Origin: Diphasiastrum complanatum
Lineage: Eukaryota; Streptophyta; Lycopodiopsida; Lycopodiales; Lycopodiaceae
Length of the DNA: 64,000 nucleotides
Direction of reading: 5' to 3'
NCBI GenBank assembly: GCA_029204225.1
Contig: CM055109.1
Span: 1,128,673 to 1,192,672, forward strand
Shown here: positions 3,928 through 58,079 of the stretch, in pieces
Layout of the letters: every line of letters begins with the position of its first letter
How positions within the stretch are numbered: the first letter of the stretch is position 1
Program-made: the position numbers and the translations under genes
Notes under the pieces: model-generated
Databases searched by the model: none
What the model saw: only the letters and a program-made list of their open reading frames with translations
Told to the model about the DNA's origin: nothing

Positions 3928-6900
3928 CTGGAAAGAAACAAACATTTATGTATAGAAAGAAGATCACTGTAAGACTATGCAGAAACCAGAAAAAGCAATC
4001 AGTTGCAATAACTGTATACACCAGACAACAGTCTCTTTGTCTGTAAGAAACAATGCATGGCCCCAAAACAAAATGCTGGGACGGATATCTTTGCAGGTCA
4101 CTATAGAAACTTGACATACAAAACCACCTTTTCTGCCTCATTTCAAATGTCATATGGAACACATCTTGTACGGAACGTGGGAAAATTTAAAACATTCCAT
4201 AGGGAGCATAATTTTTTAAAACATAAAAAAAAATTTTAGATTATTTGTTTAGATATTTTGTGTACGTACTGAATGAAATCAACCTAAAAAGAAACCCAAG
4301 ACTGGTATGTAACATAGTTGCAGCGAATCGCGATTCGCTTCACAGAATCATGGAAAAGAATCGTTAAAAAAAAAAACCAGAAACTCGATTTCGGGCCTCC
4401 TCGCGCACAGAACCGCGCCAGCAGTGGAGGAGGCAAAATTTTTTTCTGAGAGCTGTGGGCGTCCAATCTTCGCAAGTGAATAGTTGGCAGGCATCTACTC
4501 GGCGATACGGAGGTGGTGTGCACGGTGCCCAATTGTTGACATTGAGCTGTAGGCAACCAAATCGAGCATAGTTTGGCTCTAGACCACCTTTCTTCATGCC
4601 CACAGTGATTCCTACAGCGTCAGTTTCAGCCGTTACGGCACGCCTAGCGAGATTTGAACACCACATTCCAAATGCTTGTGTATTTTTGCCATTTTCACAT
4701 AATGACTTGTTGGAAACCGAGTGAGGTGATGTCTGAGCCTAGAATGCATTTCCACATGCCTGCATAGACTCCTACGACCTCCGTTCCGCCCGTCTACGTC
4801 CGTATCACAAATTTCAATTTTCATGCCCTGATTCCATACTTTTTAGGGTTTAGGCGTGAACCATCGTGCAAACATCTGCTAAGGGCGCGGTTTAGGCCCA
4901 CACTACACTCCTTTATGCCTGCACGGACTCTGACGCTAACGTCAGTCCCCTGTTATCCCTCATACAGAAATTATTCTATCCCACGCCCTAATCTCATGTT
5001 CTTCTTTGGCACTTGGTATAATGTGTGAACTGGAATCGTTCTGATGTATGCTCTGGTATTTTGAGCTCTATTTGAGCTCGGTAATGTTGTTCAATGCAAT
5101 GTATTTTTTTCTACTGAACGTTTGCCTGATTATTTGTTGTTTGCAGGTTTAGGGTCGTGTTGATACGATGCCAGTGCGGGACCGAGGCCTTTGGGCTGAG
5201 GTTGAGCTTACCGACGGGGATGTGGGCACACACCATGGCTCAGGCACCCGCAGATGGAGATGCTTGCATTGCAGTGGTCACTTCACGGGATCACTCACCA
5301 GGGTTAGGGCTCACTTGCTGCGGGTCAGAGGGCCAGATGGGAGGACATTGGGCATATATGATTGCCCCAGGATTTCTGATGAGTATCTGCAGAGATTGTC
5401 TACCATGTACGGGCCCGATACTGAATCACAGGGTTCTAGACAGGGACAGGTAGCAGGAGCAGTTACAGGCAGGCATGCAGGAGGGCTCACAGGCAGGCAG
5501 GCAGAGCCTACCATGGGTATTGGGCCCAGTACATCACGGGCAAGGCATGGTACAGCTGCAGGGCGTAGTACATCACAGGTTGGGCATGGTACAGGTGCAG
5601 GGCCCAGTACATCACGGGCAGAGCATGGTACAGCTGCAGGGCCCAGTACATCACGGGCACAGCATGGTTCAGGTGCAGGGCCTAGTACAGCACCTTCAAT
5701 TCCATCCGCAGCAGCAGCAAGACCATCAGATGAGCATGTTAATTCAGCAGCAACGGGTGCTTCTCGACCCGCCTCCTCGACAGCAGATGCACCACATGCT
5801 TCGGCAGATGTTGCCAAAGAGAGTGACACACCCACGGATCAGCCATCCGTTGGGCATGCTAGACCACGAGCACCATATACACAGCAGAGAGGGGTTAGGC
5901 CCAGGCAGCAGACCCTTGATCGATGCGGCTGGCAGAGAGAGCAGCAGGCTCGTTGCACTCGACTGTGTGGCCAGTTCTTTTACGAGTGCGGCATTGCCTT
6001 TGTTGTTGCTGACACTTGGGTGTTCAGGGAGTTCTGTGCACAGATGGCGGCCGTGGATGCTACATGGACACCTCCCAGGCGAGAGGCACTACGAGGCAGC
6101 TTCGTCAGGAGGAGGAGACCATCGCGGGAGTTGAGTTCCATTCGCTCAGCTTGGCAGCAGTAAGTAACTTGTCTTTATAATCTCTTTGCATGTGTTTAGG
6201 ATTTACTGGTGCCGCAATTTTTGCATGTAGCTAATGAGTGTTTTGCGGCAGGTATGGATGCACGATATTGAGTGATGGATGGACCGACATTCGTCGGCAA
6301 TCCGTCATCAATGTCTTGGTTTCTTGCCCGCTTGGCACAGTATTCCTACGTGGCGTGGATGCCACTCGAGGTGGTGACGCCATCACAACCGATTTCATAT
6401 GGGAGGTCATTAGAGATGTTATTGCTGACATCGGGGTTGAGCACGTGGTTCAGGTTGTCACCGACAACGCCTCGAACTGCAAGCAGATGGGCGAGATGAT
6501 GATGAGGGAGCACCCCAGCATTGTGTGGTCACCCTGTGCTACACATTGCATAAACTTGCTCATCCACGACCTGTGTGCGCTTCCATGGATCAGAGCGGTA
6601 TAGTTTGTTCTATTTGCTATGCTTTCTTCCTTCAATGCTGCTAACCACATCTCAACTACTGTCTAAACTTTTTTACTAGATGTTTGTGTTGCAGATCACT
6701 TCTACGGCCATGCGCCTGGTCACTTTTGTCACCAGGAAGAGGCGTGTGTTGGCCCTGTTCCGCACCTTCTCCACCCTAAACCTAAAGAAGCCCGCACCCA
6801 CACGCTTTGCGTTTTACTTCTTGGTGCTAGAGCGATTGGTGGTGGTGAAGGACGCATTGCGGCGGATGGTTTCCAGCATGGACTTCCGGGACTTTACAGA

Positions 6901-8875
6901 CCTCCCCCATTCGGCATTTTTCCAGTCCACTGTGTACGGCGACGAGTTTTGAAGAGCTGCTAAGGAGATTAGTGGGATCCTTCTACCCATTTACAGAGTG
7001 CTGCGCCTGGTAGACCGTGAGGGTTGCACCCTCGGTCTCATTTACGAGTTCATGGACCGCATCGGCGAGGAAATTCTGTTGTCAGCCTTGGACGAGCACA
7101 GGTATGACTCTTCAGTGTCTAGTTTGTTGTTTCTCACTCGAGTCTGATGCGTTTCTTTTATGCTATGGTTTAGTGATTGTTGTAATTTGTCTACTGTAGG
7201 AGGCTCGAGATCTCACATATCTGGGAGGCCAGATGGGACTACTTCCACCGACCCATCCACGCCGTAGCCCACATGTTGCACCCCTTGTGGCACTCTACCC
7301 GAGAGAGGGACGATCCGGAGCTGTACCGGGGATGGGTGGAATACACGGAGCGTGTATGGCCCGGACCAGGTACGTGTGAGAAATCGGTTGGTAGCAATGT
7401 TACTACAGTATTGTACTCATTGGTAGTGTCTGAATTCGAGGGGTCTTACATGTGCCATGTTTTTCCTTTTGCCAACAGGTCCGATGCTGGCCAACATTGC
7501 AAGCCACCTGCTCGCATTTGAGCGCTTCCAGTTTCCTTTTGATGGAGAGCAGAGTCGATGGAGGGAGGATCAGTTGAGGCCCGTTACATGGTGGTGCATC
7601 CACGGGCGCAGCACAGGTGACCTGAGGCGATTGGCTGAGAGAGTCCTTGCACAGGACTGTTCAGCAGGAGCTTGTGAGCGGAATTGGAGCACCTGGGCCT
7701 TGTATCACACGTAGAAGAGGAACAGGTTGTCCATCGAGCAGTGTAGGCGGTTGGTGTTTGTGAACACCAACGGCAGTATGTTGAGGCGCACACGAGGAGA
7801 GGGTCAGATGCTCGAGGTGAGTCACATCATCACCCCTTTTTTCTTGCTATGCTTTGATGAATTGATTTGCTTTCAAAATATGCAGTGAGTTGCACAATAC
7901 CTGCCTGACAACAATGTATTGTTTTTGGTTGCAGGTGGACCCTGACACTTGCTTGGTGGATTCGATAGCTGCTGCTCCTCGGGCACCACCCACACAGGAG
8001 GAGATGGATGATGAGATCCATAGAGAGCTCTACAGACAGGCACAGGCTGACGCACGGCTTTACGGCGACAGAGGAGGACAGAGAGGCAGAGGGAGAGGGC
8101 TGAGGAGGGAGATGACGAGGGCTCGGAGGGTGGAGAGATGCTCGGGGCAGACTATGTGGAGGAGGAGGAGTGGGTTGAGGGAGATACAAAGGAGGACGAG
8201 GAGATGTGGGCGGAGGCACAGAGGGATGACCTGGATGACCTGCTGGTGGACCCTGATGCAGAGACAAAGGAGGAGCCAGCCATTCCTGCATGTAGGCCTA
8301 GGGGGAGACCTAGAGGTTCTGGGAGGGGGGGGCTGAGTACTCTTTTTGTAGACAGGAGTGGAGTATCACAGGAAGCCGTCGGCCAGGCATCATCACAGTG
8401 GGTAGGGCCATCCCAGGGTGTAGGGTCACAGCCACCTGACACACAGGCACGACGGAGTAGACACAGGGCTGGGGGCAGCCAGATGGGGGCCAGAGGAGGG
8501 GAGAGAGGCAGAGGCAGAGGCAGAGGTAGAGGCAGGGGGAGGGGGGTGGTCCAGAGCCAGAGCACGCAGCAGGGATCCAGAGCACGCAGTAGAGCTAGGG
8601 CCACACCACGGCATATGGCTCCCTCCAGTTCCGATTCATCTGCGGACCCATGGGACCTGCAGTCCACAGATTCGGATGATTTATCCTACCATGACTCTGA
8701 CGAGCCTTAGTTATATAGTTTTCATTATGTTCATGGAACATCATTGTACCCCTTTTTGGTGCCATGTGGCCCGATATTATATATTATGATGATCCTATTC
8801 ACAGCATTGTCGTGATTCAGTATTGTTCTTTGTGGTTTTAGTTCAGTAACTTCGGTTTCATGGCTTATGATTTAT

Positions 8876-8960
<85 letters not shown>

Positions 8961-11900
8961 GGTTGTTTTGTCAAAAATTGTTTCATTTAAGGCTAAAGTT
9001 CAGAATGATTCAGCTAGGTTTTTGTTCAGCATGGTTTTAGTTCCGTTTGTTGTGAATTGTGATCAGAGAGAGATAGATAGAGGGAGAATCAGAGAAAGGG
9101 AGATTCTTGCTATGTTCATTGGAAGCCCCAATGTGTTCTCTTTTTTTTATATGGGATGCAGCTTTAGCGTAAAGGGACCATCCTGCACCTGAAACAGTCG
9201 GCAAACTACACAATCATATTCCCCTCAATTAAAACTTTAATCTGATACCCGTATTGCACAAAAAAATTTCAAAAAAAAAAAAAAAAGGATTCTACACGAT
9301 TCTGGGAAAATCCCGAATCGCGAATCGGGATCGTGATTCTGATCGCAATTCTGAATTGCGATTCAGAATCGCGCTGCAACTATGGTATGTAATATGCATG
9401 CATGTACTGTACAGAATATATAGCAAGTTTTTTTAATGGGAAAAACTTCTAAAAAATTTAGACCTTGTGAGTTTTCAACATTTTCGTTTATTGATAAGGA
9501 ATTATAATGAGCTGACATTGACTCTGCTGGAGAACTTAAGCTTGCAAACTAGCCGTTTATACTGCCAAAAGGTGTCAGAATACGGTTCGATATTAGCAGT
9601 CAGGCATATGGCCAAATCAAATTTACAACCACTCCCATCTGAAGAGCTTTCAAGAAGTATTAAACCTACCTTTGCACATCATAATGAGAACTAATCAACA
9701 TGCATTTTCTAACAAGAAACACAAGAAGATCAAGTAGCAAACATGGTGAACTGTCACCATCAGCAGCTCGTTCACTGGATTAAGAGCCCACTAAAGAAAG
9801 TACATCCTCCCTCCAGATTGAGTGTTTCTTTCTTCAGTTTTTGTACTCATTTGTGCTCCTTATTCATAAGTGCCCTTCACAACTTGAAGAGCTCACTGAA
9901 GTGTTTTCATGAACAGAGTACCCCTTTCCAATGCCAACATCTAATCTCTTTCACTCTTCAATCACCTAATATTGAAGTCATAAATGCAGCATTTCCAATG
10001 AATAGACAGAAATCTAGCAACCTGCAAACCCCATCTTCATGATAGCCATGCTATCCAAGATTGAGCTATTAAAACTTGATCCTTGTGTCCCTTAAACAGT
10101 ATCCATAATGGTATAAAAATCTTTCTTCATTAATATATGCCAATACAGGGTATTGACACTGACTGTAGCTATACTTCTTCCACTAACTCACTTGATTATG
10201 CCTTAGAAAATTGAAGGATTTTAGGCCTTCAAGATTGGGGTTCAGTGTCAAGCTAAAGCTCTAAACTAGCCCTAAAGATGTGTTTATCTTCTCAAATTTA
10301 AGGCCCTTCAATATGGGATTTCATGTATTAACACTAAACTGCTTCCTTATTTCCACCAATTGACCATGATTTACACCACATAAAAGCATTATACAGGATC
10401 TGTTACTGTCAGAGTCAGCCAAACAGACATGTTTTAGAACACATGAGGGAGAATAGATTATAATCCTTTTTTCATAATATTATTCGTTTTGTTCTAAAAT
10501 GCTTTGTTCCGTTTTGACAAAATTTATAACAAACAACGGTGACAAAATATGTCTCACAATCCATCTTGGGAGCATTTATACGTATTTTTTAGAGTTTTGT
10601 ATTTTATGATCCATTGTTTAGTCTTGCTCGTTTTGTCACCATTTGTTTGTTAAAAAAACGAGAAAAAAAGAGAGAAAATCAAGTGTTTTTACATGTGTTT
10701 GGACGTGGTTCGTAAGTCCCACTTTAAGCTCATTCATGATCCATTATTTCCCACATCTTCAAGGAGATTCTAGTGTGTAAAATATACAGTAAAGCTTGAA
10801 AAAAAATAAACATAATAGCAACTTTTTTCTTCTAAAGAGAAAAAATCAAAATCTCTGTTCTATTCACTGCTCAACCTTTGCAGATTATTTAGTTCAATAG
10901 AGGAAGGTTAAAAAAATTACCATATAATGTAAAAAACACAAGCTTGTTACTTCTACCAAAATTCACATGATAAGCAATGAAGGAGCTCACAAGCTGAACA
11001 TCAGACATAAGAGCAGTGTGTGGAGTCTCTGAAATCAAATGCCCTAATCCTCGAAGCAACCATATCCTGGACAAACCATCAGGCCAAAATTACACCAAAT
11101 GACATAAGTGCACTATATTACAACCATAACTTGTTACTTTGAGCTAGATAATCAGAAGTCAATAGGTCTCAGCAATAAATGCATTCATTCCAATGATACT
11201 TGCAGACAAACATGTTGGGTCACAACAACATGGATCACCAAAAATTTCCCATTGCCCAGCATTATCAAACCAGCCTTTGAACCACCCCCATAAATTTTGA
11301 AGTCCTGATTTTCAAATTTCAATAGAAGGAAAAGGAAGAAACGCACTCATTTTATAGCACACAATTTTCACTAGCCTTCTATAACATTAAGTATGACACT
11401 TCTGACATGAACAATATCCTTATAGGGATGTGCCGCCTTCACTGACCAAATAGTAAACTCATCTGTCCCATGGGAATCTAGCCTTGCCTTAAGTGCAAAC
11501 ATGCTTAATATCAGGCTTGAAGCCCTGTAATACTCAGTGACACACCACTAGCAATTGGTGAGAGTGACCTTGTAGCATATTTTTCATTGATGTTTGGAAA
11601 CATTTAGATCTTCCTCTTCATCTTTTCACTAATCTTATACATCCTCCTCCAAAATGCATAGCAACTACTTTTGATGGGACTGATTAAATTGATGATAAGA
11701 TGTTTCCTCGAGGCTGGATTCCTATATACTGAATCTTGCTCTATGTTTCCCATCTCCCAAGTGGGAAACATTTTTCTGATCTATAACTATCATTGTATAA
11801 AGCATCATCACCAAGATGAAGCAATCTTGACCTCCTTGGAGAGCTAGTTATCTTCAGCTACCATTTGGGAGAATTCGTTTGGAGCCTTTTCCTATAGTAT

Positions 11901-14900
11901 CAGGTAACATCATTCAGTGAAAGGCTTGGCCAGACAAGTAGATGATATTGGAAAACTCTGTTTCTCAATCTCCACTTCCACCTATCGCAGAAATGTCTAG
12001 GTCATAGTCTAGGATGTCCTATCCCAACATATCTAACATGTCATCAATCAGGAAAACACATAATCACCTTACATCAAACTCTGCTATGGGCTAGAATTTC
12101 TTAAAAAATAACTTCACAAGTAACAGGTTGACCACTACTCAAGACCTTAGGCTTTGGTAGTTGCAAAAATCAATTCATAGCCTCCAAAATTCAAGCTTCA
12201 ATTGGTGCAATCCTCAACATATCTTTTTGAAGATGAAACTAATAGTAGGCTCTTATAAATATTCTTTCTAGCTCTGAAAATATTGTTTTGCCACCTCTCC
12301 TCTTTTTGCTTTTGAATTGTCAGGATAACCAATAAAGATACACTTCAAAGACTTAGAATCAAGCTTTCTTCTACACTCATCAGGAATCTTCATGAAAAGC
12401 AAGAGAACCAAATACTTTCAATTGACTTATAGATGGTTTATGCCCACTATAAGCCTCTTCAGGGGTGATACCTGCCAAAATCTTCGTAGGAGAACGATTC
12501 TGTAGATATCCTGCAGTCTTCACTGCTTCGGCCCAAAAGGAATTGGGCAAACTCTTTGCCTTCATCATACTTACAGCACACTTGAGGCATAGTTCAGCAA
12601 AAACGTGATTGGTTGACCCTCTAGTAATTGATAACTTTAAAGTCATCTTTGAACCCTACACGACTTACCTCATGCTCAACTTTCATACTCTATGGATCCT
12701 CTTGTTGAGCTTTCTGATCGTAGCTAACAAGTCTTTCTCAATTTCTAGAAATGGGATTTTGATAAATTATTTGGACAATGCATTTGACACAAATTACCTT
12801 TCTTTATTTATATTGTTCGATAGTTATAGGCTCTCTCTAAAAAAGAGATGGCCCTACACTCCTGAAAACTGATCCTGGGGCTTGAACTTGAGAAATGGTC
12901 CTAGTGATAGCAATAAGGTGATCCACACGACTTTTCAGTATGCCTTTCATGGTCTCAACTCTTTGTAAAATCTCCTCCGAGTGTCAGCAACCTTGTAATA
13001 GCACGGTTTGTAAATTAGCTCTCCTAGCAAAGTTTAACTTTTTTTGCACTCCTGACACCCTTATAATTGCTCTGAACTCAGGGTATATTGTAACTAATCC
13101 TTATGTACAGCAGATAGCTTGATCAGGCACCGGAAATCATTTTTTAGGAATTTTGATTGCCTAAAACTCATACTGTCCAAAACAGCTATTGCAGCTTGAT
13201 TTTTTAGGAATTTTAGTTGCCCAAAACTTGTACTGTCAAAAAGTGCTATTGCAGCCACAGATTTTCTTGATTGCTAAGAGGCTTTGTAAAAAGTACTGTT
13301 TCTCCATATTGCAAACTTAACTACAAGCCACTATCTAATGAGCAGATTCACAGGGTGTTATGTCAAACATTTTTTAAGCAGCACTATAACGTAAAGCAAT
13401 GTCACGGACAGCCACTTCACATAAAAGCCTAGCCTTAAGTTAGCAAACATCTTTCTTCCTAAAATTTAACCAAACACAGGAAGTCATGTCCTTATTCGAA
13501 AACTGATCAGACATTTATCATATATACACACGAATATGCTCCAAAAGTATCACACAAACAGCATTTTAAAAATGTGTCACAGAAGCAAAAGTTCCAAGAT
13601 TTTAGCTCCAAATTCAGAAATCGATTACCTGCCTTGGCATTATTGAGACAAACAAACTTTACGGATGCAACCACACATGTAACCGGAACTCACCTCTCAA
13701 AGTTCCCAACTTCGCGCAGTGCCTGGAAAAACAACGGTAGCATGCTACAGAGAAACCGCTGCTTGTAAAGTGGCCGAACCGTTGCATAATGTTTCTTGTT
13801 CAAAGCTTTGCTTTCCTTTATTATAATTCCCAAACCTTCGGCTGCTGCAGTCGCTATCGCTATTGTTAATTCTTCATGCTCTTCGGATTCCTTATTCATT
13901 CTATAGCCCTCATGCTTAGGATCCTTCCCAAGTTCAAGGTCACTAGATTTGAGTATGCTCAGGAGCAGCACTGCAATATCTTTTACTTGCACATCGCCTC
14001 TCATAGCCAAAGCTTTTCCCACCCATGACAAAACTTGAACACCTTGAAGTCGCTTATGACTCAACAAAAACCCATCTGAATTATCCAAATTCTCAAGACC
14101 ATTTGAGTTCATGAAACTCTTGACAGGACTTATCGATTCACTAGTCAGCACAAAATTAATGGCATCTTCTAAAGTAAGCAAGTCTGAAGACAAATGATTT
14201 TCTTTCTTGCCCTCCACCCACTTATTCAGTATTGATGCCAAGGCTTGCGCTGCTGATTCTGTATATGGAGATCGCCTTTTATCAAGGGCAGCATCTAAGA
14301 ACAACTTCAAAAAAAATTTCTCTTGGAGATAAAGTAACCCAGGTCTGACCGCAATCACAATAGATGCTAAGAGTGCTATCAGCCATGTTTCTTGTATTTT
14401 CTGATAACATGAACTTAATTTGAAAAGAGTCGGAATGCTTTGTTTGCAGATATCCTTTTTAGAAAAAGCTATAGCTTTTGAGTCATTGCATTTATCACAA
14501 ATATTTACTCTGTCTGCTACAGTCTGCAAAGCCTTTGAGAAAACATCTTCTTGCACAGCTGCATTGCATTTCTGTACCGCAACACGTATCACCTCCATGC
14601 ATGCAGCCATAATCTAAATACGGTAGAGATTTCAGATATGAGAATCACAAATAGCACTGGTCTGGATATACAACAACATAGTTTTCAAAAATAATGCTTT
14701 TTCTTAAGAGGTTTAAACCAAGGTTGCAGGCCGCGTTCCGGAACGCATTCCGGATCGCGTTCCGGAAATTTCCATTAGGGTTTTCCGGAACAATTTTGTT
14801 TTTTTTTGAGATTTTTTTAATACCAAGTATCAAATGGAAGGTTTTTTCAAGGGCAGTTCCTTTATCAAGTTTGCCATCAATTTCAGGACCACTGTCGTCC

Positions 14901-15172
14901 GTTAACTTATTTTTCACTATTATATCATTTTCTACAGTTACCAGTATTGTGTGAAATGCTTCTTGGTTTCCAAGGGAAGGCTCGAACTTGAGACCAAAGA
15001 AACTTTCTACAGTGACCAGTATTGTGTGAAATGCTTCTTGGTTTCCAAGGGGAGGCTCGAACCTGGGACCAAAGAAACTTTGGATGCCAAGCTAACCAGT
15101 TGAGCCAACCCCGTTGGGTGTGTATTGTGTGAAATGAAATCATGTGCATAGCAAAGCATTGAAAGCATATTG

Positions 15173-15238
<66 letters not shown>

Positions 15239-18200
15239 GTAGACCATGCTGGAAAAAAACCATACCGAATTACCTACTGAAATAGACCATGCTGGAAAAA
15301 AATCATATCGAAACACAAACTGATAGGACACAATGTAAAAACGTGAAAATATATAATGTCGGGCTCAAGGCCAAAAAAAAATCGTTTTGGAGACCAACGC
15401 CGCCACCTCGTCGCTTCCACTATCCTGATCACGCACAGATCGATGCCCCACGCTGCCCACAATCCACGATCACCTCCTCATCCTTGCTCTCTCTCACTCT
15501 CCAACTCTCAAAATGCAAAATTTTTTAAGTGGGCCGCGGGCTGCCTGCTCGCGGCCCACATAAAAAATTTTCAAAATTTTTCGCGTTCCGGGACCGCGTT
15601 TCTGGTCCCGGAACGCGGGCGATCCGGATCGAAATCCTTCCGGATAACGGTCCGCTGCAACACAGGTTTAAACATACTTTTCTTTCAGTAGACATTTAGA
15701 AGATACTCATTTACTATCATTCAACCATAGATCCAGCGGTACCAGGATCCGCGGATCCCGGTACCGACGAGAGCAGTGCATTTATGCAGGTTGCCGGTTT
15801 TGACGAGAGCGAACAGCCAAAGGACCGAGGGGATGCAAAACACCAAAAAGTGTGTTTTCACTCAGGGAGTCGGAAGGCCAAATCATGAAGAGGCCGTACC
15901 GTCGGGGCCTCGGACCCCGCCAGGGGGCTACCGCCCCCCGAACCCCCCAGGACTTCCTGCTATATAGAAACTATAATCTAGCCATCTCATAACCATCATG
16001 GTCTCACAGTAGACCCTATACTAACAATCGTGCTCAGTAATGGCTTCTCCTCATAACGGGGGCCTTACAGATCTGAGCTCAGGGTTAACTAGTGACTACT
16101 AAACTGAGAGGTGCATTATTTAGTTGTCTAACACATTTTGTAGCTGAAAGCACCGGCAACTTGCATAAATGCATTACTCTCATCAAGAGCTTCAAGCTGA
16201 TACCCATATTGCACACTAAATTTCTTTTTTTAAATTTAAAAAAAAAATTAATGAAAATATTAAAAAATGGTACCGCCCTGGTACCGCGGAATTTTGGGCC
16301 GCACCATAACCGCGGTACCACCATTATGGTACCGGCGGTACCACAGGGAACTATGCATTCAACAAAGAAGTATAATGTACTCAACATGGAAACAAAATGC
16401 ATATATAGTAATTACAAGCACATGGGTAAACTATGGAGGACATAAATGAAAGCATGCAAAGCTCCATATTTACCATTTAGCTTAGGGTAGATGTTGACGT
16501 AGGAATGAGGTTTTAGTTTACCTGCTCAGAATACTTAAGGGTGGAGACTGGAAGTGCTTCGATTGAACTCCAAACAGAATGAAGGATCTTAGGTGCCGCT
16601 GCCTGATCACCTCCTTCAAGGTTGCATCTGCTCACAATGAAAAGCATAGCTTAAAATATGCATTAACCAAGCAATTTCAGTTCTAGAATGTATCTTTCTT
16701 CCTTGTAGCATAGGAGCAATGCACATGCTAAAAACCAAAAATATCATTTATAATATCAACGTTTAGAAGTGGATGGTAGCTTAGAACGAAAAAATGGCTA
16801 TCATATTAGAAAATCTAGCAGGGCGAATGGCCAAATTGCAAGCAAAATTGTAAGTCATTTTTTGAAAAAGGAATTCACCCAAAGAATGTGGAAGAGAAAA
16901 CTTTTCAGATCTAGAAACAGGCCAAATTACATTGTCAATATCATCAATAAATGCAGTTCTATCTTGTTTCTACAAGTCTTGTATGAAGAATGACGTCTTG
17001 TGCTTAGAAGCCCGTTCCGACCAAAATGGGTCGGAACGTTCCGTTCCGAACGTTCTGTACGTTCTGGAACGTTCCTGGTCAGAACGATATTCATAATAAT
17101 TTCATTATTTTGATTATTTATATGAATTAAATGCTTTGTAAAAAAACGTATTTTTTTTATTTTTTGAGGGCATCGTTCCGGAACGGGCAACTAAGGTCTT
17201 GTGTACTTCCTATGTACTGTACATTAAGTAACAGTACTCTACTTGCATTTAATAGATGTGTATTTGTCTAGAAGATTCTAGGCTCAATCATTTTTCATTT
17301 AGCATTTAATGATATGATGTCCTCTTAGTTCAAGATAATATTCAGAAAATTTTGTACTGAGTTTTCTTTTTTTTTATATGGTATTAGAGCAGGTTTTGAG
17401 AGGACAGATCTGGTATTGTACTTGTTCCCTAGAGAGAGAAAGAGAGTGTCTATAAGAGTCAGTTTCTAGCGAGTACTTGCATTTAATAGATGTGTACCTG
17501 TTTAGAAGATTCTAGGCTCAATCATTTTTCATTTAGCATTTAATGATATGATGTCCTCTTAGTTCAAGATTCTGTTCAGACAGTTTTGTATTGAATTTTC
17601 TATAAGTTATTCTTGAGCTTGCTTAGCTACATACTTTCATATACATAGTACTACACTTGTATCATTGTAATGTTCTATTTGGCCTATAGAGTCTAGATCG
17701 ATGAAGGTGATCACATTAGACACTAATAAAGATACGGTATAGATTGGCCCTTTGTGGCCCTTTGAAGGTCAGGCCAGACTCTCAGTTTTTTGGAAGTTCA
17801 CACATATGGAGAGATTGTCCCATCACACTACTCGTTAGCGTACCACATAGTCTTCGTTAAACCTTGGAGCAGTTCAGAGTTTCCTCCAGCCAACTTCAGG
17901 TGGAAGTAGGTTACTTGCAAAGGATGTCCAAAGAGGATAGGATTTGTCATATGTGTCCCATCAGAAAGATAGAGATGGAGCACTCTATCTTTAGGAACTT
18001 GATATGTATGACCTTTGTAATTACATTGTAAATAATTGATATTGGACAAGATTTTGGTTTTTATTTGTACACTACTTGGTGTCAGTTCTAACATTCGGTA
18101 TCAGGGCCAAGGTTAAGAAGAGGGCTTGATTATCAAGCACTTTTAAACCCTTTTTTCATCTTTGCCTTGCGGTACTTGTACGCTATCGATGTTGGCTGGA

Positions 18201-21200: not shown

Positions 21201-24200
21201 ACAAGCAAAAGTGCATGCACAACTATGATTACAACCACTAAGAATATACATGCATGTGCTCATCAACTGAAATTCCTATTTGGCCCACACGCATTACTCC
21301 TGAGAACTTTCTAGCTACTGCACATAGACTGAAAGCAAAAATCAACAACAACACATGGAATGGAGAATAAGAAAACCTTATAATCAAAGTAAACACAACT
21401 ACAATTGCAATGGACTGTGGTAGCAACAGAGAGACAGGAATTTGTTGAAATTTCATATGTGCCAAAAGCAGTGCATAAGACTCGAGCACATACAAAAATG
21501 TCTTCCACTATGTAGGAGCACAATTTCCACCATACTAGCTTCGACCAAAATCAAAGTTGTTTTAAGAACCAAATTGACAACAATGAACCGTGGATAATGA
21601 GATTCACATGCATATATATACATGTCACAGGCCCTCAACACAGCCTAATGTTTCTGTATAGGTATGTAGCTGCTCGGCATACACTACGGAAGAAGGTATG
21701 TTAAAGAAAACATGGAAAAGTGTTCGTGCCAGATATGGTTGGAATCTCAATGATTTGTTAATTGCTGATTCGACCGAATCACGAATCCAAATCAGAACCA
21801 GCTGATTCCAATTGGATTCCCAGCCTCCAAGGATCCAATTGCTAAAATGAATACTTTAAGATCTATTATAGCACTTGCTACGCACTATGGATGGCATGTA
21901 CAACAAATGGATGTCAAATGAGCTTCCTTGAATGGTTACTCAGAAGAGGAGGTATTTGTTACTGTTACAGTATGTTGACCATAATCAAATACACCATTTG
22001 AATCTAACTAAATCCTACTATCTTCTTTTACGAAAGATAAAGTGAATGAGACACTCTATAGATGTTTGATTGGTAGTCTCATTCATCTTACTATCACTAG
22101 GGCATATATTTCCTGTGTTATGGTGATAAGTTAGTTAATGGTTGACCCAAGAGCATCACATTGGCGTGCTGCTAAAAGAATTCTATGATATCTTAAAGGC
22201 GCATATAACCATGGTCTTGAATATGAAGGAAGTGCACATTGGGAAAGTGATGCAGAGAACCGAAGATCCACTATAGATTATGTATTATCATTTGGTTCAG
22301 CTACTATTTTGTGGGCAAGTAAAAAGCAATCCACTGTTGCTCTTTTATCTAATAAAGCCAAATATAGTGTAGCTTCCATTGTTGTATGTGATTGTATAAG
22401 GCTTAGAAGACTTCTAGCTAAATGCCAAGAAAGTCAAAGTGATACGACCCCCATCTTCTATGACTACCAAAGTTGTAATCAACTTGCTAAATATCCTACA
22501 TTTCATACTCATACAAAGCATGAAATGTTGGATATTTACCCAAAGGAAGTGGAGCCAATTTATTGCTCAACAGATTATCAAGTAGTTCATATACTGGCTT
22601 AAGGATAAATTAGTCATTAATTACGCAGTTTGAAGATTGCATCACCGGAATCCACCTCAACAAAGGTCCAACAATTGGAAACCAAGATTGAACAGCATAA
22701 GGAAGAAACCAAGCAACTTAGAAAGCAAAAAGCTCTCAATATTAGAGTAAGAAGCATTCGAACACACAAATTGGTATTGAGGAAGCAACATGCTTTCTTG
22801 AGACTACATTGGAGTCCCTTAGAAGCCCGTTCTGAGCAAAATGGGTTGGAACGTTCCGTTCCATAACGTTCCGAAACGTACTGGTCGGAACGAGTTTATT
22901 TACAATGTAAAAAAAATAAACATAATACGCTGGTTTTCCGCGAAATCTATTGAGGTAACACCCTGCTGGCCCGCGACTTCACCATTTCACAACACTTGCT
23001 GGCCCGCGACTTCACCATTTCAAAACACATGCTGGCCCGCGACTTCACCATTTCACAACAGCGAGCAGGGAACACTGATGTGCTAAGATAACAGAATTAT
23101 CAGACAATTCAAATAGCGTGTCATCATAGAATCTGTAGCTGTAAGGTAGATGTGTGGTAAGTGCTATTCTTGAACATAATAGACCAACCTCTCTCAGTAA
23201 ACTATATCTTTTGTATGACATACTTCAGCTTCTTAGCATTCATTTTTCTTGTTCGTCACTTCAATTTCACAAGAGAATGATCATTCGTTGCATACTTCTA
23301 GCCTTCTGCATACACCAACTCTTCTCTCAGATAAATACCGCTCGAAGTTAGAGCCATCCGATTATTAATAATTCTGTTATCTTAGCACATCAGTGTTCCC
23401 TCATCAGTATGACGTTAGTGGTGCGCTATTTGAACTATCAGGTAAAGCTTCAAAGAAAAAAGAGAACGGATTAAATATTGAAGTGTAGTGTATAAAAAAT
23501 ACGTTTTTTTTTTTTCAAGGGTTCGTTCCGGCACGGAACGCGTTCCGTTCCGGAACGGGCAACTAAGCATTGGACTATAACTGTGAGGGCATGGATTCAA
23601 CATGGGGGACAAAGAAAGATAATGTCACCTTAGTAATTGGCTTTGTATCATCAGAAAGTCATAGAGAGGTCCTGCGACAACAATCTAAGTTGAGGGGCTC
23701 CTGTATCTTCATGGACGATACTCTCACTTACATGCAGCTGGTAAAGCCTTCCAGGAGGCCATGGATATTGGTAGATGTGTGATATACATGGATGGCCAGA
23801 TTCGTTACATTGATGGTGCACCTAGAGGCCCCCATAACTAGGAAGTTGGGGCCCTTGGGCTTGGGAGCATTCCAAGGCTCCGTTTACACCACTTACATCC
23901 TTGCTTTCTTCAGTAGTGGTCCTATTGCGACATTTTTTTTTATAGTTCGGACTGTATTATACAACTTCAGCTACTCGACACCCCATGGTACCCTATTTCA
24001 GACTTTCATGTCTTGTGAGAAAAGCAGAGATTGTCTAGTCTTGATAGGCTAATTATTTATCTTTTGGCATTATAAAGAAATTTATAAAGCTTTTATTGCA
24101 GCTGACTTCATCGCTGGGGAACAGTCAGTGCTGTCCCTTCCTCATCTAATTCTTCGTCGTCTGCTGCCTTCCTATCAGGCTCTACCAAAAATGCTCATTA

Positions 24201-43234: not shown

Positions 43235-43288
<54 letters not shown>
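43235..43288. repeat. (CT)n at 5' end of the 43-kb LINE
   Basis: A pure CT tract of about 54 bp directly upstream of the LINE 5' end (AGCGATGGAGATGGCGATGG). At the other end of the same LINE, near 54.83 kb, the tail also passes into a CT tract. Confidence 0.95.
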
Positions 43289-43291
<3 letters not shown>

Positions 43292-43338
43292 GATGGAGAT
43301 GGCGATGGCATTGTAGTAGGAGCGGCTCTTCCTTGTCT

Positions 43339-44694: not shown

Positions 44695-44742
44695 GGATTA
44701 AGGCCCCTCGGACTAAGCGGTTCGGGGGGTCCTCCTCGAGCA

Positions 44743-45732
44743 TTGCGGTTGAGGCTATGGAACTGCAATGGCATTCACTCTTCGGCTACTGCCGGCGATT
44801 TTAGAGACTTTTGTGCGGAGGGTGATCTCTTCCTATTCACAGAGACACATGAGAGTCCGGAAAGAGGTCTACCTGTTGTTACGGGTTTTTGCTGGTACTC
44901 TGCACATCGGCAGTCGACGAGAGCATTGACAGATCGGGGTTCTGGTGGGGTGGCCTGCTTAGTCCGCGACTTCATTCGGCCTTGGGTCGAGTTGGTGCAT
45001 ACAGATGAGCGAGCTTGCTATATTTGGATTCGGGTAGACCGGACTTTGACGGGATTGACCCGTGACCTCTTTCTGGCCATTTGTTATTTTCCACCAAACA
45101 CCTCAGTTTTCACAGCAGATGAGGAGTCACCTTACATGGATATCTCTTTAGACATTATCCGATATGAGGAGCGGGGTTATGTTCTTTTAGCTGGCGACTT
45201 TAATGTCAAGACTGGATCCAGGCAGACAGAGTTCCATAGAGCAGAGGATGATCCACAGCGGATACATGCTTTAGACTGGGATGATCTTGGCCTCCGGCGA
45301 CGATCAGCAGATGCAGAGGGTCTAGTTACTGCATACGGAGAGCAGATGCTTCAGTTGGGCGAGGCTCATGGATTGGCCATTTATAATGGCTTATTGCAGT
45401 GGCCTGATTCAGGTGACTTTACTTGTTTTCCACACAATGGAGGGAGTAGTGTTGTTGACTATTTCATGGGATTGTCGTCTCTCCTCCCCTACATTTCATC
45501 TTTCCTGGTTCACCGTACCACTTTGTCTGACCACTCATACCTCTCTCTCTCTATTGGCCTTCTTCACACCCCATGTACTAATACCCTAACTCCTGGCAAC
45601 AAAACAGTGTACCGCTATAATCCTCAAAACACCCCCAGGTACAGGGAAGCATTATTTGACCTCTTGACTCATTTCCCTTCTGATGATACTTTGACGAACC
45701 AGTCTCTTTTTCTTGTCCGGACCTTGCATACC
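44743..45732 (+). pseudogene. LINE ORF2, endonuclease part (43-kb LINE)
   Basis: 330 codons open up to the gypsy insertion. Endonuclease motifs are NCNG, FTETHES, LLAGDFNVKTGSRQTEF and LSDHSYLSLS, in the same spacing as the intact LINEs. One change is Asn-Val for Asn-Ala in the GDFNA motif. The start lies 16 codons after the ORF1 stop, in frame, without ATG. The reading frame leaves LINE sequence at 45733 and ends a few codons into the gypsy LTR. The continuation is at 52151. Confidence 0.88.
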
Positions 45733-46090
45733 TGTAATAGATCCTAACACCACAGTAGGGCAAACACTAACTGATCCACCCAACCTTGCCTACTCCCTGA
45801 TATAGAGTAAGCCCCTCCTAGCCCAGTGTGAGGACTGGTAGCATGCTACTGCCAAGTGTCGGCCACGTGGCACTGACGTGGCCGACTGCACGTCGGGACC
45901 CAACTGGGAGCCCTATCCTGCTGACAGGGTCCCTAGGCTGTGTTAGGCCCGCCATGGCTATGCACCGTGCTGGGGCACACTACTCACACTGTCTTGCCCT
46001 GTTGGTCATGTACACTGGACACGACCCTGACTGTGGTATCTGACCTATCTGTGTTCTCTAGGGTTCGGCACTGGTTACGAGCTCGTAACA
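45733..46090 (-). repeat. 3' LTR of gypsy element
   Basis: 358 bp. On the coding strand it begins TGTTACGAGCTCGTAACC and ends GGATCTATTACA. The first bases contain the perfect palindrome GTTACGAGCTCGTAAC. A second near-palindrome, GGCCACGTGGCACTGACGTGGCC, lies near 45863-45886. A third, truncated copy is at 63434. Confidence 0.95.
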
Positions 46091-46108
46091 CTCCCTCCCC
46101 CTTAAGAA
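46091..46108 (-). promoter_or_regulatory. Polypurine tract
   Basis: On the minus strand AAGGGGGAGGGAG directly precedes the 3' LTR start. This is the expected position and composition for the plus-strand primer of an LTR element. It follows the pol stop by about 15 bases. Confidence 0.8.
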
Positions 46109-46121
46109 CCGTCTTGGTCCT

Positions 46122-48012
46122 CTAAGACAAAGTCTGGAAAAATCTTGCGAAGGACGCTGCCTCTTTCCCAAGTGCATTCTCAACAGGCTGATCATTCCAC
46201 TTAACCAGATATTCTCGGTATAGAGTATGACGAGTCTGCGTCTCTCTACTATCAAGAATCTCCTCTGGTTCATGTGGAGGTTGTTGAGGATCCAATGGGA
46301 GAACTAGAACACTGTCCCCTACCAGATTGTCTGATCTGGCTAAGGCTTTTTGTAACTGACTTACATGAAAGATTGGAAAAACCTTACTGCTATGTGGGAG
46401 TTCTAGTTCATAGGTGACCTCGCCTAGTCTCCTACTGATGGTAAAGGGACCACAATACCTTGGAGACAACTTAGCACACACTCCTGATTTGAGGGTTTTA
46501 GAGTCAACTGGGACTCTCAAGTAGACTTTCTCACCAGTGGAGAACTGCACATCCCATCTGTGTGGATCTGCATAATGTCTGGCTCGATCCTGGGACAGTC
46601 TAATGCTACGCTTAGCATGTTCTATCATCTGGTTTAGGTCCTCTAAAAAGTTTCTGGCTGCTTCAACTTTTTCTTGTTTAAACCCTACAGTTGTGGGTGA
46701 GCGTGGCTGAAAACCGTACATCAGCATAAATGGGCTGTATCCCGTAGCTGAATGTTCGGTACTGTTGTAAGCAAACTCTAATATCGAGAGATACTCCTCC
46801 CAATTAGTCTGCTTCTTGCTGACGTATGCACGAAGCATATCCTCCAACACTTGATTTACCCTTTTCGTTTGACCGTCCGTCTGTGGATGGTCGATGGTAC
46901 TCATATTAAGTTTAGTATGGAGATGATGGAATACTGCCCTCCAAAAATTTCCAGTAAACTTACTGTCCCGGTCGCTGACTATGCCGGAAGGTAGACCGTA
47001 CAATTTAAATAGCCCGTCAACAAACAACCTCGCTAACTCTGGAGCTCTAACGGTTGTTTTGGTCGGAATGAAATGAGCCATTTTGGTCAGACGGTCAACT
47101 GTGACCCATATAGCGTCATTACCCTTTTGGGTTTTAGGCAGGCCTACTATAAAATCCATGGAGATACTCTCCCATTTACCAGCTGGTATTTCTAAGGGAT
47201 GCAACAACCCTCCTGCCTTTAAACGCTCTGCTTTATTTACTTGACATTTCTGGCAACTGGTTACATACTGGTGGACGTCCTTTCTCATACTGGGCCAGAA
47301 AAATTGCCTACGAAGAAGCTCATAGGTCTTTTGTATGCCTGGGTGTCCCGCACTAGGATTGTCATGACATTCATATAGGACCTGCTGCCTATAATCCTCT
47401 GAATTGGGGACACATACTCTATCTCTATAGAGCAAGTACTCATCCTGAATGGAATACTGTTTCCATTTGAATCCTTGAGTCAACTGACCCTCAACCACTG
47501 AGGTTTGCTTGGGTAATACAGGCTCAGAATCCTCAACGTCATCTGACGACGTATACTCGGACTCATCATCATCCTCAACGGAAGCTGCCGTATTCTTGGA
47601 TGAACTGGCACCAGCCCCGGGAACTGGTTCAGGAGTCTGTAACTGTCTGCTCTGGACTGAGTTCCAGATAGTAGAGAAGAATGCATCATGCTGGCATTTC
47701 CCTCTCAAGGACTCGAGTAACTCATTACGAATCTGAGTAAAACTCAGTTCGTTTATCATAGGCATTCTGCTAAGGGCATCTGCTACTGTATTGAATTTTC
47801 CACGTCTATATCTGATAGACATGTTAAACTCTTGCATCAACTCTGCCCAACGAGCTTTCCAACCTCTAAGCTCAGGTTGATTGCAAAGGTATCTGAGACT
47901 CTCATGGTCTGTCAGGACCTCAAAGTTGGCACCATACAAATAATGCCTCCAAGTCTTAAGGGCATGGACAATAGAAAAGAGTTCCTTTTCATAGGCACTG
48001 TACCTAGTCTGA
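46122..48012 (-). pseudogene. gypsy pol, 3' part: RNase H end, integrase, chromodomain
   Basis: Open from 47939 to 46122 (605 codons), in a different frame from the upstream part of pol. It includes [18 protein letters not shown] (RNase H), an acidic tether, and the integrase zinc finger ([25 protein letters not shown]). The integrase core follows ([53 protein letters not shown]). It closes with a chromodomain (REYLVKWNDQPVENALGKEA). The frame break at about 48013 is a single base missing relative to the 36.9-kb copy (GTCTGAGTGG against GTCTGAGCTGG). Otherwise the enzyme set is complete. Confidence 0.93.
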
Positions 48013-49921
48013 GTGGCTCGAGTTTTTTACTCTCGAACGCAACTGGTCGTCCACTTTGAGTTAGCACAGCACCTACTGCAAAGTCGCTAGCATCTGTTTC
48101 GACCACAAATGGCTGATTGGGGTCGACGACTTTTAAAACTGGTGCTGTAGCTAAGGCTGTTTTGAGAGCATCAAAGCTCTCCTGCTGTGCGGACTCCCAA
48201 ATGAACTCCTTTCCCTTCCCCTTAAGGAGATTTGTCATAGGAATTGCTATCTGAGCATATTCCTTGACAAATCGTCTGTAATATCCCGCCAGACCAAGAA
48301 AGATCTGAAGTTCCAAAATATTCTGAGGTCTCAGCCAACTGAGTATGGCTTTAACCTTATTTGGGTCCATCTTAATCCCATCTGAAGAGATAATGTGACC
48401 CAAATATGCTACTTCTTCAACGAAGAATTCACACTTGGATTGTTTAGCATAGAGCTTATGCTTTCTGAGCAGTCGAAACACCTTTCTGAGGTGTTTTAGA
48501 TGCTCCTTCCTCGTTTTGCTGTAAACGAGGATGTCATCTAAAAATACGACTACAAACTTACCCAAGTATGGTCTGAGGACACTGTTCATCAAGGTCATAA
48601 AGGTAGCTGGAGCATTTGTGAGCCCAAATGGCATCACCTTAAACTCATAATGACCGTGACGAGTCCTAAAAGCTGTTTTCGAGACATCTTCCGATTTTAT
48701 ACAGACTTGATGATATCCCGATCTGAGGTCTATTTTGCTGAAAAACTTAGCCCCGTCGAGTTGATCAAACAACTCGTCTGCCCGAGGCATAGGGTATTTA
48801 TTCTTAATTGTGACTTTATTGAGGGCTCTGTAATCTACGCAAAGACACATACACCCCTCTTTCTTTTTCACCAATAGGACTGGTGAGGCCCATGGTGAAC
48901 TACTGGTCTGAATTTGGCCTTTCCCAAGATAGTCTGTTAACTGCCTAGTTATTTCTTCATCCTCTGTTCGGCTGACCCGATACGGAGGTTTAGAAACAGG
49001 TGCTGTACCTGGTACTAGGTTTATTACATGATCTACCTCTCTGCTAGGTGGTAAACCATGTGGTAAATCTTCAGGAAAAACGTCTTTAAATTTAGACAAT
49101 AAAGTTTCTAATTTACTGATTTTCTGCTGAATAGAACTGGAAATAGAAACTTCAGGAATAAACTGAAAGTCACATAAGAATACCTGATGGTCTTCGTCTC
49201 CGATTAAATGACAGAGCTCTGATCTGCAAACCATAGGGCTGTTGGGAACATCATGCTCCCCATGCAACTGGATCTCTCGGCCTTTATGCTGAAAGCTGAG
49301 GGTGTTCTCCTGATAGTTTCTGTGGAGGGAAGGTCCTAAACTGTAGAGCCAATCTCTCTCGAGAACAATGTCTGTTCGATCCAGGTGCATTATCTGAAAG
49401 TTTATTTCATCTTGGTACCCCTGAATACCAAGATTTAACTTACTTACCATAGTTTCCCATATTTTTTTATCTTCACCCTTAGCTAATGAAACGATGTACC
49501 TATGCTGACTAGGTACTTCTGGTAGTTTAAGCTTTTTAACTAGGGTGTGGTTGATGAAATTATGGGTTGCCCCATCATCAACCATGACTCTTACTGACTG
49601 GTTACCAACTTTCCCATGCATACGTACTAGGTCATGCGGCCCAAAGCTGAAGGGTCTCGATAGCATTGCAAAGGTCAGCTGGCAACAGTGTTCATGATCT
49701 TCATGATACACTTTGATCTCGGAAGCTGCCGAGTCACTGGGGAAACATACAGTCTGAACAAGATGAACTTGTTTTTTATCTTTCTTATCTTTTTTAGTGA
49801 AAGGCCCCTTGGGACACTGTCTGACTGTGTGTTCCTTGCCCATACACACAAAGCACAAACGTTCTTGTTTGGCTTTCTCAAAATCATCTGGTTTTAAGGG
49901 CTGTATGAGTGAAGGGCGTTT
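47912..49921 (-). pseudogene. gypsy pol, 5' part: zinc knuckle, protease, RT
   Basis: Reads in the same frame as gag, directly after its TAG. It has the zinc knuckle [14 protein letters not shown], an aspartic protease ([12 protein letters not shown]), then reverse transcriptase ([46 protein letters not shown]) and the RNase H start ([15 protein letters not shown]). The frame is lost near 48013 through a one-base deletion, so RNase H and integrase are cut off. The protease Asp-Asp-Gly form occurs in other plant elements and need not be a defect. Confidence 0.93.
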
Positions 49922-50887
49922 CTAAGGAGCTTCACCTTTAAATTTATCTTCTTTCTTTCTTTTTAAAAATTTCTTTTTAAATTGAAAGTCTTTCTGAGAA
50001 GGCTGCTCAGAAAGTGGTTGTTGTCTCGCCCTCTTCCTACCCACTGAATCATCATAGATTTGAGCATATCTGAGAGCTTGCTCAAGGGTAGTAGGCAAGT
50101 TTCTCTGGACCTCTACTTTATATTCATCTTTGAGGCCACGGACAAATCCCCTGATTTTCTGATAGTCATCCATATTTTTAATCTTTAAAATTGCCTCTCG
50201 ATACTGCGAGATATATTGGATGAGGGACTTGTCCATTACTGTTCTTTCCCAGGCTTCCCAGGCTCTATCAAGTTCATTCTCTGGTAGAAATTCTCTTAGG
50301 AAAGCTTCTTCAAAAGCTTTCCATGACCGGGGAGACTGCCTAGTCTCCTGGAGATTTAACCACCACTTATAGGCCATAGGCCCTAAGGAAAGACTAGCCT
50401 CAATAGCTTGCAAATGGTCAGGGGTATGTTTAAGAGCATGAATGTTCTTCCATTTGCTGAGGAAGGTTTGTAGAATATCTGCATTTCTATCCTTCTCTTC
50501 TCCATTAAAAGTAGGAGGTTTTAAGTCTTTAAAAACACTGGGGTGAGATCGTAAAGTCTCACCCGAAACTGATGGAAGTGGAGAAGGGGATAACTGAGAA
50601 GTGGAGGGAAGGCTTCCTTTCGCGGAACTCAAAATCAAGTTTTTGAGTTCAGGGAACGAGTTGTCCACACTGGACTTGAAATTGGCTAATGCCAACTTCA
50701 GATCATCCACTTCTGTTACCAATTGGAGGAACTGCTCCTTGGTAACTAGTTCGTCGAGTTCTTCGGCGAACTGTTCCTGTTCTTCTACTTCCATGGGTTC
50801 CTTCCCTTTCCTGTAAGCCAAGGCTTTTGTTTCAAGTTCGTCGAAGCCTCTCTCCGGGGGTTGATCAGGTCCCTGAGGAGTGGTCAT
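49922..50887 (-). CDS. gypsy gag polyprotein
   Basis: 321 codons from ATG 50887. It has an acidic N-terminal helix region (EEQEQFAEELDELVTKEQFL) and the retrotransposon gag domain (PPTFNGEEKDRNADILQTFL, WWLNLQETRQSPRSWKAFEE, FVRGLKDEYKVEVQRNLPTT). It ends in a Lys-rich tail (QFKKKFLKRKKEDKFKGEAP). It stops at TAG 49924-49922, but the same frame continues for 21 more codons into the zinc knuckle of the next segment. The stop therefore separates capsid from nucleocapsid. It is either a recent mutation or a readthrough site. Confidence 0.92.
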   Translation of the reverse strand: MTTPQGPDQPPERGFDELETKALAYRKGKEPMEVEEQEQFAEELDELVTKEQFLQLVTEVDDLKLALANFKSSVDNSFPELKNLILSSAKGSLPSTSQLSPSPLPSVSGETLRSHPSVFKDLKPPTFNGEEKDRNADILQTFLSKWKNIHALKHTPDHLQAIEASLSLGPMAYKWWLNLQETRQSPRSWKAFEEAFLREFLPENELDRAWEAWERTVMDKSLIQYISQYREAILKIKNMDDYQKIRGFVRGLKDEYKVEVQRNLPTTLEQALRYAQIYDDSVGRKRARQQPLSEQPSQKDFQFKKKFLKRKKEDKFKGEAP

Positions 50888-51772
50888 CTTCGGAACTGAA
50901 AGAGAGCTACCTTAACTTCTGAAGGAAAAAAAAAAGTCTAAAAGACTAATTTACAACTGTACAAGGGAAAGGAAAGATGACTTAGCTGTTTCTGAGGACT
51001 GTACTTCCAAAGAAAGAATGAAGAGGAACCCTTTCAGCTCTTTTCCCCAAGATTTCAGACCTGCTGTCCCGAAAAATGCCAGTTTGAAGCTTCAAAACGG
51101 TGCCAAATTTCCCGGTTCTTTGAGGATAGTAGCTCGCTGGTCTGATTGCAACCCAACTGGCTCATTTACTTCTGATTTGAGACCCAAAAAAGTATTTCAA
51201 TTTCTGATTTTGGTGTCTCCCTACCCTCGCTGGCTGGACAGCCACCTGTCTGGCCCAATTTTCTAAAATTTAAGGCCCAAAACTTGCTTGAAACTCTGAT
51301 CTGACTTCAAGTAGTAGGTCACTGGTCTGTGGCAATCTAGTTTGATGTTCAAACTACTGAAAAATTCTCAAAAACAGTGATGAAAAACCAATTTTTCACC
51401 TCCCTGTCCAGCGCTGGCCCTGCTAAGAAAATTTGCTTGAAAACCCCTCAAACTTCCTTGGATTTCTCTGAAATTTCAGAGGTAGATGTCTGATCCCACA
51501 GCGATGGACCTGCTCACTGGTTTCTACTCTAAATCCTTTCTAAAATCTCCTATCAGATGTCTGAAATCTGATATAGATTGCTGCCTTTCCAGCGATTTAC
51601 CTACAGAAGGAATTCTACTTCCTACAACTGTAAATTCTCAGTGAATTTCAAGGGTTTGAAGGCTGCACCTACAGCGATTCTCCTCCTCTAATCTTTTCTG
51701 AGAACCTGAGAAACACTTCCTATCTTCTGATAGCTTTCTCTACTGCTGCTCCTGAACTCCCTAGGATGGAGA
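50888..51772 (-). other. gypsy 5' leader
   Basis: An untranslated leader of about 890 bp between primer-binding site and gag. It contains no long open frame. CTGGTCTG(A/T) and CCAGCG words recur (near 51137, 51325, 51410, 51590 and 51670), giving a loosely repetitive leader. No further function can be supported. Confidence 0.6.
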
Positions 51773-57422: not shown

Positions 57423-58079
57423 CAATGTTTCATGGACGCGTTTCGTACGTGTTTCGAAACGCATTTGAAACATGTATGAAACGTCTGGTTCAGGTTCGAA
57501 ACGGGAAAAAAAATTTAAGGGTTTTTTTTTTTTTGAAAATGTGCTTTTGAGGGTTTTTGAGGGTTTTTGAGGGTTTTTGGGGTTTACAGATGTCATAGAA
57601 AGTCTAGTAACAAGTAGATACATCCAATTTCATGAGAATGCTCTAGAGAATGCAATTTCAAGAGGAGAAGCTGTGACTGTACATACTACAAAGCTTATGG
57701 CACGGTTTTTGGGGTTTACAGATGTCATAGACAGTCTAGTAACAAGTAGATACATCCAATTTCATCAGAATGCTCTAGAGACATTAGAATGCAATTTCAA
57801 GAGGAGAAGCTGTGTATGGTGATTATGGTCACTTTCCTCAGTCAATTATTGAAATTACTAATACTATCATGGATAGGTTATTAGGTTGCGAGAATCTATT
57901 CATGCCCATTGCCTGTACATACTACAAAGCTTATGGCGCGGTATCAGAAAAAAAAAAAAATTGGTTTCTTTTTTTTTTGGTCGTTTCGAACACTGAAACG
58001 GCGTTTCGAAACGGGGTCGTTTCGTACATCCCGTTTTGAACACATTTCAGCATTCGAAACGCGTTTCGAGGAAACACTG
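57423..58079. mobile_element. Non-autonomous hAT-like element, CGTTTCGAAACG word family
   Basis: Perfect 8-bp duplication GACAGCAT (57415-57422 and 58080-58087). The termini are CAATGTTTC and, inverted, CAGTGTTTC. Both ends are packed with GTTTCGAAACG, GCGTTTCG and CGAAACG words (57429-57505 and 57980-58072), followed inward by homopolymer A or T runs. The interior holds a ~130-bp imperfect tandem duplication. It is nested in the leader of the LTR element, so it is younger than that insertion. Confidence 0.9.
57577..57815. repeat. ~135-bp imperfect tandem duplication
   Basis: GGGGTTTACAGATGTCATAG begins two units at about 57579 and 57710, each continuing to GCAATTTCAAGAGGAGAAGC. A four-fold GAGGGTTTTT run precedes the first unit. 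Part of the same unit (GTACATACTACAAAGCTTATGG) recurs at 57914. Both units translate to GFTDVI(E/D)SLVTSRYIQFH, but no family is recognised. Confidence 0.8.

Follow-up and report, generated by a model that had tools for sequence, protein, structure and literature searches.

Family-specific arrays of CpG-ending half-sites at the ends of hAT elements in the clubmoss Diphasiastrum complanatum

The window analysed here, a 64-kb stretch of the 1.74-Gb genome of the clubmoss Diphasiastrum complanatum (contig C18:1128673-1192672), contains six hAT elements, E1 to E6, whose ends are crowded with short CpG-ending half-sites, arranged mostly as inverted pairs (Table 1). A first-pass annotation of this DNA had described five elements with perfect 8-bp target-site duplications (TSDs) and a sixth, E6, with an imperfect one, and all were re-found at the same positions. 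Exact 8-bp TSDs also occur outside the window, at L116, L126, L131, L132, L133, L180 and L181 (L numbers denote genome loci fetched for comparison). The terminal inverted repeats (TIRs) of hAT elements are short, with C (or T) first, G fifth and usually A second. In the window, the first base is C and the fifth G in all 12 ends; the second base is A in only seven, with T found in the right end of E2 and in E4 and E6. A combined TSD and TIR scan placed E4 (14/16 TIR matches) and E1 (13/16), and no other element, beyond the chance level, which in 20 simulations was 0.05 per window at 13 matches and none at 14. E5 (11 matches, 2.3 expected) and E3 (9 matches, 25 expected) were at chance level, and E2 fell under the listing threshold of the scan. 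Because TSD and TIR by themselves do not lift E2, E3 and E5 beyond chance, these calls rest on the repeated end motifs, termed words here, and on related copies, namely L126 for E2, L136 and L158 for E3, and L180 and L181 for E5.

E1 is the transposase-encoding type, and its protein, the only one scanned, matches DUF659 (E 1.9e-42) and Dimer_Tnp_hAT (E 4.3e-06), both above cut-offs, which bears out the assignment of the elements to hAT. Read as six exons, the E1 transposase gene has two in-frame stops, and its frame changes inside the last exon, so the window copy is dead. Among 7,998 candidates scored, the top-scoring relatives were from the fern Ceratopteris, at 35% identity, and a shorter relative reached 41% identity over 40% of the query. 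No reading frame of at least 150 amino acids was found in E2 to E6.

In the tip-to-interior direction, E1 has the half-site GAATCG, E2, E4 and E6 have GGAACG, E3 has GTACCG and E5 has GAAACG, and in the window elements the same word is kept at left and right ends. Together the 12 ends hold 50 exact half-sites of their own family and two foreign ones; shuffled ends average 2.8 exact half-sites. In a split-sample test, hexamers that were most frequent at one end were counted at the opposite end, and 16 of 20 rows reached P<0.05. Neighbouring half-sites no more than 14 bp apart are inverted in 119 cases and tandem in 43 (GTACCG excluded), although copies within a family are not independent.

Table 1. 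Elements, transposase exons and word arrays in the window (positions counted from its first nucleotide)
Feature	Position	Strand	Details
E1, hAT, transposase-encoding type	4313..9384	+	tip CATAGTTGCAGCG; TSD GTATGTAA
E1 left array	4325..4363	.	GAATCG
E1 transposase exon 1	5168..6159	+	BED-like CCHC finger (residues 32, 35, 49, 66)
E1 transposase exon 2	6252..6597	+	most of DUF659 region
E1 transposase exon 3	6695..7101	+	in-frame stop
E1 transposase exon 4	7200..7369	+	
E1 transposase exon 5	7479..7816	+	hAT dimerisation region; in-frame stop
E1 transposase last exon (inferred)	7935..8710	+	frame change inside
E1 right array	9297..9371	.	GAATCG and CpG-decayed variants
E2, hAT, no transposase frame seen	14719..15665	.	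tips CAAGGTTGCAG / CTGTGTTGCAG; TSD GTTTAAAC; relative L126
E2 left array	14733..14790	.	GGAACG, orientation alternating about every 6 bp
E2 right array	15584..15653	.	GGAACG and GATCCG-type repeats
E3, hAT, no transposase frame seen	15726..16355	.	tips CATAGATCC / CATAGTTCC; TSD CATTCAAC; likely partner L136
E3 left array	15737..15766	.	GTACCG and GATCCG
E3 right array	16268..16343	.	GTACCG
E4, hAT, 193 bp	17003..17195	.	tips CTTAGAAGCCCG / CTTAGTTGCCCG; TSD GTCTTGTG; partner L187
E4 left array	17013..17086	.	GGAACG
E4 right words	17174..17185	.	CGTTCCGGAACG
E6, E4 family	22818..23567	.	imperfect duplication: left CATTGGAgtcC, right CATTGGAC
E6 left array	22828..22892	.	GGAACG
E6 right array	23524..23557	.	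GGAACG
E5, hAT, no transposase frame seen	57423..58079	.	tips CAATGTTTC / CAGTGTTTC; TSD GACAGCAT; relatives L179-L181
E5 left array	57439..57503	.	GAAACG
E5 right array	57982..58067	.	GAAACG

The words had been proposed as one CG-rich palindrome per family, differing completely between families. The family-specific repeat stands, in the form of half-site arrays, while the perfect palindrome fares less well and weighs against the proposal as worded: although the window has 25 perfect CpG palindromes of at least 10 bp, and 13 of them are no more than 70 bp from an element end, palindromes of at least 8 bp beat shuffles (P<=0.01) in just three of the 12 ends, so that the robust unit is the half-site array. 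Nor do the words differ completely, as the six elements use four half-sites in all; GGAACG is common to E2 and to E4/E6, in spite of their different tips. The E2 and E4/E6 words, GCGTTCCGGAACGC and GGAACGTTCC respectively, are this one half-site joined in opposite orders. The right ends of E4 and E6 both contain CGTTCCGGAACG, and the interiors of these two elements are unlike each other.

Genome-wide, GAATCGCGATTC occurs 3910 times, against 4 for its reversed control, and GCGTTCCGGAACGC 348 times, against 2; for CGTTTCGAAACG the count is 688, against 321 for a control that lacks CpG. A first look at the genome yielded 10,619 DUF659 candidates (150 scored) and 6,659 candidates for the E1 finger, of which the 150 scored all have at least 93% identity. 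At 30 loci with an E1-type finger the left tip was seen in 25 and no tip in five. All 25 left ends with a tip carry at least two copies of GAATCG, with two to nine half-site copies per end, and the form CATAGTTGCAG is present in 24 and CATAGATGCAG in one; the word is thus fixed within the E1 transposase family, as the first-pass annotation would have it. At least two pairs among these 25 ends are duplicates; one such pair is the window insertion (L139) and L140. The latter, on contig C656, is an E1 copy flanked by the same duplication, GTATGTAA, as the window locus, and is probably its alternative haplotype.

Loci around other DUF659 matches extended the range of words. CAAACG marks families with full elements of 2.4-3.4 kb, whose tips are mostly CAAGGTTGCA or CATGGTTGCA, and GAACCG was found in two ends with tips CATAGAACC and CGTAGAACC. 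A 405-bp element with an E2-type tip has GATCCG at one end and GGAACG at the other. When words were sought de novo in 338,140 bases from 90 loci, mostly picked around words or transposases, 63 distinct clusters were obtained, compared with one in a single order-2 Markov copy, and 52 of the 63 contain one of seven known half-sites. A further cluster at L158:2753-2919, with the half-site CGGACG / CGTCCG and A-tracts, may represent an additional family. At L110, at about 3345-3456, an E1-type tip, CATAGTTGCA, is by eye joined to a GAAACG-type word, CAGAAACGCG.

Small elements that lack a transposase frame bear the tip and word of an encoding family, clearly in the case of E4 and E6 and probably in that of E3. 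The left end of L187, which encodes a BED-like finger, is identical to that of E4 in 70/70 aligned letters, with one 19-base gap; this identity, together with the finger, makes the L187 family the likely mobiliser of E4 and E6. L136 has nine GTACCG copies in its left end, a CATAGGTCC (CATAGNTCC) tip, a BED-like finger and DUF659 in a 672-amino-acid frame. The E3 ends score 62 and 82 against it, whereas 173 random 110-mers reach at most 57, although an earlier, less strict control reached 76 and many gaps break the alignment. The L136 family is therefore a probable mobiliser of E3, a weaker case than that of L187 for E4 and E6. In the loci fetched, no transposase-encoding partner of E2 or E5 was found.

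How far the word depends on tip and transposase was assessed from 55 distinct tips, each accompanied by three or more copies of a single half-site. The tip core G[TA]TGCA carries four words (GAATCG in 17 tips, CAAACG in 14, GGAACG in two and GATCCG in one), in agreement with the claim that tip bases are partly shared while words differ. The remaining tip types carry one word each: E5 (12 tips), E3 (4), E4/E6 (3) and CATAGAACC-like (2). A strict tie between word and tip does not hold, since GGAACG sits behind the E2 tip, the E4/E6 tip and, by eye, a third. Four loci chosen only by the E2 word were inspected visually, with no test for a duplication; L191 has the E2 tip, L193 and L194 have what look like decayed E2 tips and L192 has a different one.

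The proposal further linked every word to a single BED-finger subtype. Word and finger are both available for six families, two related ones of which share CAAACG, and among these six, word distance correlates with finger distance (Mantel r 0.66, 32/720 permutations), with DUF659 distance (r 0.75, 20/720) and more weakly with tip distance (r 0.44, 50/720). The part of the proposal that survives is that the word tracks the transposase clade, under a partly shared tip. The finger correlation is no stronger than that for DUF659, and with DUF659 partialled out it fades to r 0.26 (119/720). With six families, an effect of the zinc finger is inseparable from descent of the whole transposase, and the finger is a plausible cause of the link between word and family.

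Families have characteristic CpG-ending half-sites that recur over about the outermost 100 bp of the element, mostly in inverted neighbouring pairs. We consider it probable (about 0.8) that, in several families of one DUF659-type hAT lineage, the words at the element ends are arrays to which the transposase binds. By analogy with Hermes, Ac and Herves, the N-terminal BED-like finger would bind one half-site, and two fingers of a transposase multimer would take an inverted pair cooperatively. A dense array would recruit the transposase, which would then cut at a near-generic tip, such that the array gives family specificity and the tip gives chemistry. As the half-sites end in CpG and CpG transitions are enriched among their variants, they were probably methylated in the past, and methylation may block binding. 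Words would diverge alongside the transposase, by sudden switch or gradual co-divergence, and may keep families from cross-mobilising one another.

Related cases are described for other hAT elements. The Ac transposase of maize binds cooperatively to AAACGG subterminal hexamers, and Ac/Ds resembles the clubmoss elements in that its target duplications are 8 bp long, its tips are short, several CpG-containing hexamers lie in the outer 200 bp at either end, and non-autonomous elements share tip and hexamers (PMC3260210). It differs in having one hexamer word, with the string 'palindrom' absent from that text (PMC3260210), whereas the clubmoss has at least seven half-sites in one genome, mostly as inverted pairs. 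Pairs of Hermes BED domains bind a quasi-palindromic repeat, STR1-STR2, cooperatively and require an AT-rich neighbour, which makes their target similar to the paired half-sites; however, Hermes is described as having one pair near the left tip and another far inside, in place of pairs repeated in arrays (PMC10368747). In the clubmoss, an A8/T8 run lies at 30-150 bp in 40 of 57 tips, compared with 8.8% of random positions. For the mosquito element Herves, a CG/AATTCAT motif at both ends is reported as critical and sufficient for binding, sufficiency having been tested with direct repeats; its site CGATTCAT contains CGATTC, that is, the E1 half-site, and its authors state that the specificity of hAT transposases is ensured by differences between their binding sites (PMC3143072). 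CGGBP-type BED/Hermes domains are related, hAT-derived domains that differ in specificity, often for CGG or CGC, and for four hAT proteins the motif corresponds to the subterminal regions of the protein's own element; these domains are, as described, mainly of the animal hAT-19 type (PMC8097297), whereas the clubmoss elements belong to a plant DUF659 lineage and their words are read from end sequences.

The inverted arrangement would also suit hairpins in single-stranded DNA or RNA, serving as small-RNA sources or cruciforms, with the repeated half-site as a by-product. Ten of 11 ends (E4 right excluded) fold better than dinucleotide shuffles, with z from -2.3 to -6.7, and arms of 10-14 bp are present in the left end of E4 and the right end of E2. 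The E1 left end, in contrast, gives z -0.24, the half-site is reused at variable spacing and in tandem in 43 of 162 cases, which a hairpin does not need, and the changes in E6, L120 and L115 relative to E4 are by eye, in few copies, not compensatory. Hairpins as the primary function are thus improbable.

The CpG content of the words points to a second alternative, equally improbable, in which they are CpG islands maintained to control methylation or to counter silencing of the element, and are recognised by some factor of the host or the element that is not the transposase. Median observed/expected CpG is 2.12 at tips, compared with 0.54 over all loci. Half-site variants include 17 CpG transitions where 2.6 were expected, while other changes depart less from expectation (17 where 13.6 were expected and 11 where 8.0 were). 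VANDAL elements, which belong to another superfamily, Mutator-like, offer a parallel. In Arabidopsis they combine family-specific arrays of short motifs with a co-diverged, family-specific, element-encoded protein, VANC, and related VANC proteins are reported to have different tandemly repeated targets, but VANC is an anti-silencing factor (PMC5735166). Against this alternative, the clubmoss arrays lie within ~100 bp of both tips, in gene-less elements too, where transposase sites are expected. That the words are neutral short repeats, growing by slippage or gap repair and drifting between families, would fit the variable half-site number in E1-family left ends but is very unlikely, given the same word at both ends of window elements and in every E1-family left end with a tip, and its persistence in E4 and E6 while their interiors differ.

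Beyond the reading of the words as transposase-binding arrays, a more ambitious proposal is that the DUF659 hAT lineage keeps its architecture of tip and array while the half-site NNNNCG, read by the BED-like finger, changes per family, so that thousands of elements would sort into separate mobilisation channels with CpG as a shared methylation switch. We regard this as speculative and, taken whole, rather doubtful. If it were true, this genome would be a natural data set for a BED-finger recognition code. Should word and finger co-vary, matched pairs of finger and target could be read from sequence, given the 10,619 first-look DUF659 candidates and the 3910 copies of one palindrome; such a code would then become testable, and it would be seen how related transposons sharing a cell are kept separate. 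In annotation, tip and word together indicate which family is likely to mobilise a given short element.

Family-specific subterminal hAT motifs that give specificity are already described, for Herves (PMC3143072), Ac (PMC3260210) and the CGGBP-type proteins (PMC8097297). The clubmoss words are a rich new example of this principle, not a new kind of system, and are distinguished by how many words a single lineage and genome contain, by the inverted-pair arrays and by the terminal CpG of the half-site. In the one library searched, this case was not found in titles and abstract openings on hAT subterminal or palindromic repeats, DUF659 or lycophyte hATs, or this genome.

The window also contains a host gene, MMS19 (13690-21173, minus strand), two reading frames of which match Diphasiastrum complanatum protein P0048 with 307/307 and 289/289 aligned residues identical. 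E2, E3 and E4 sit between MMS19 reading frames and are therefore apparently in its introns. At 25815-25893, where a frame ends within a LINE-like (long interspersed nuclear element) stretch, about 20 residues (EHVVQVVTD...TCKQMG) resemble the DUF659 core of E1; they gave no Pfam match. Two tandem LINE-type units occupy 26151-35740, with frames of 336-345 and 1183 amino acids each present twice. Offset by 4985 bp and 99.75% identical over 4807 bp, they are a recent tandem duplication or tandem insertion. On the minus strand at 37934-50911, frames resembling the reverse transcriptase, integrase and gag of Ty3/Gypsy elements were recognised by eye in more than one copy.

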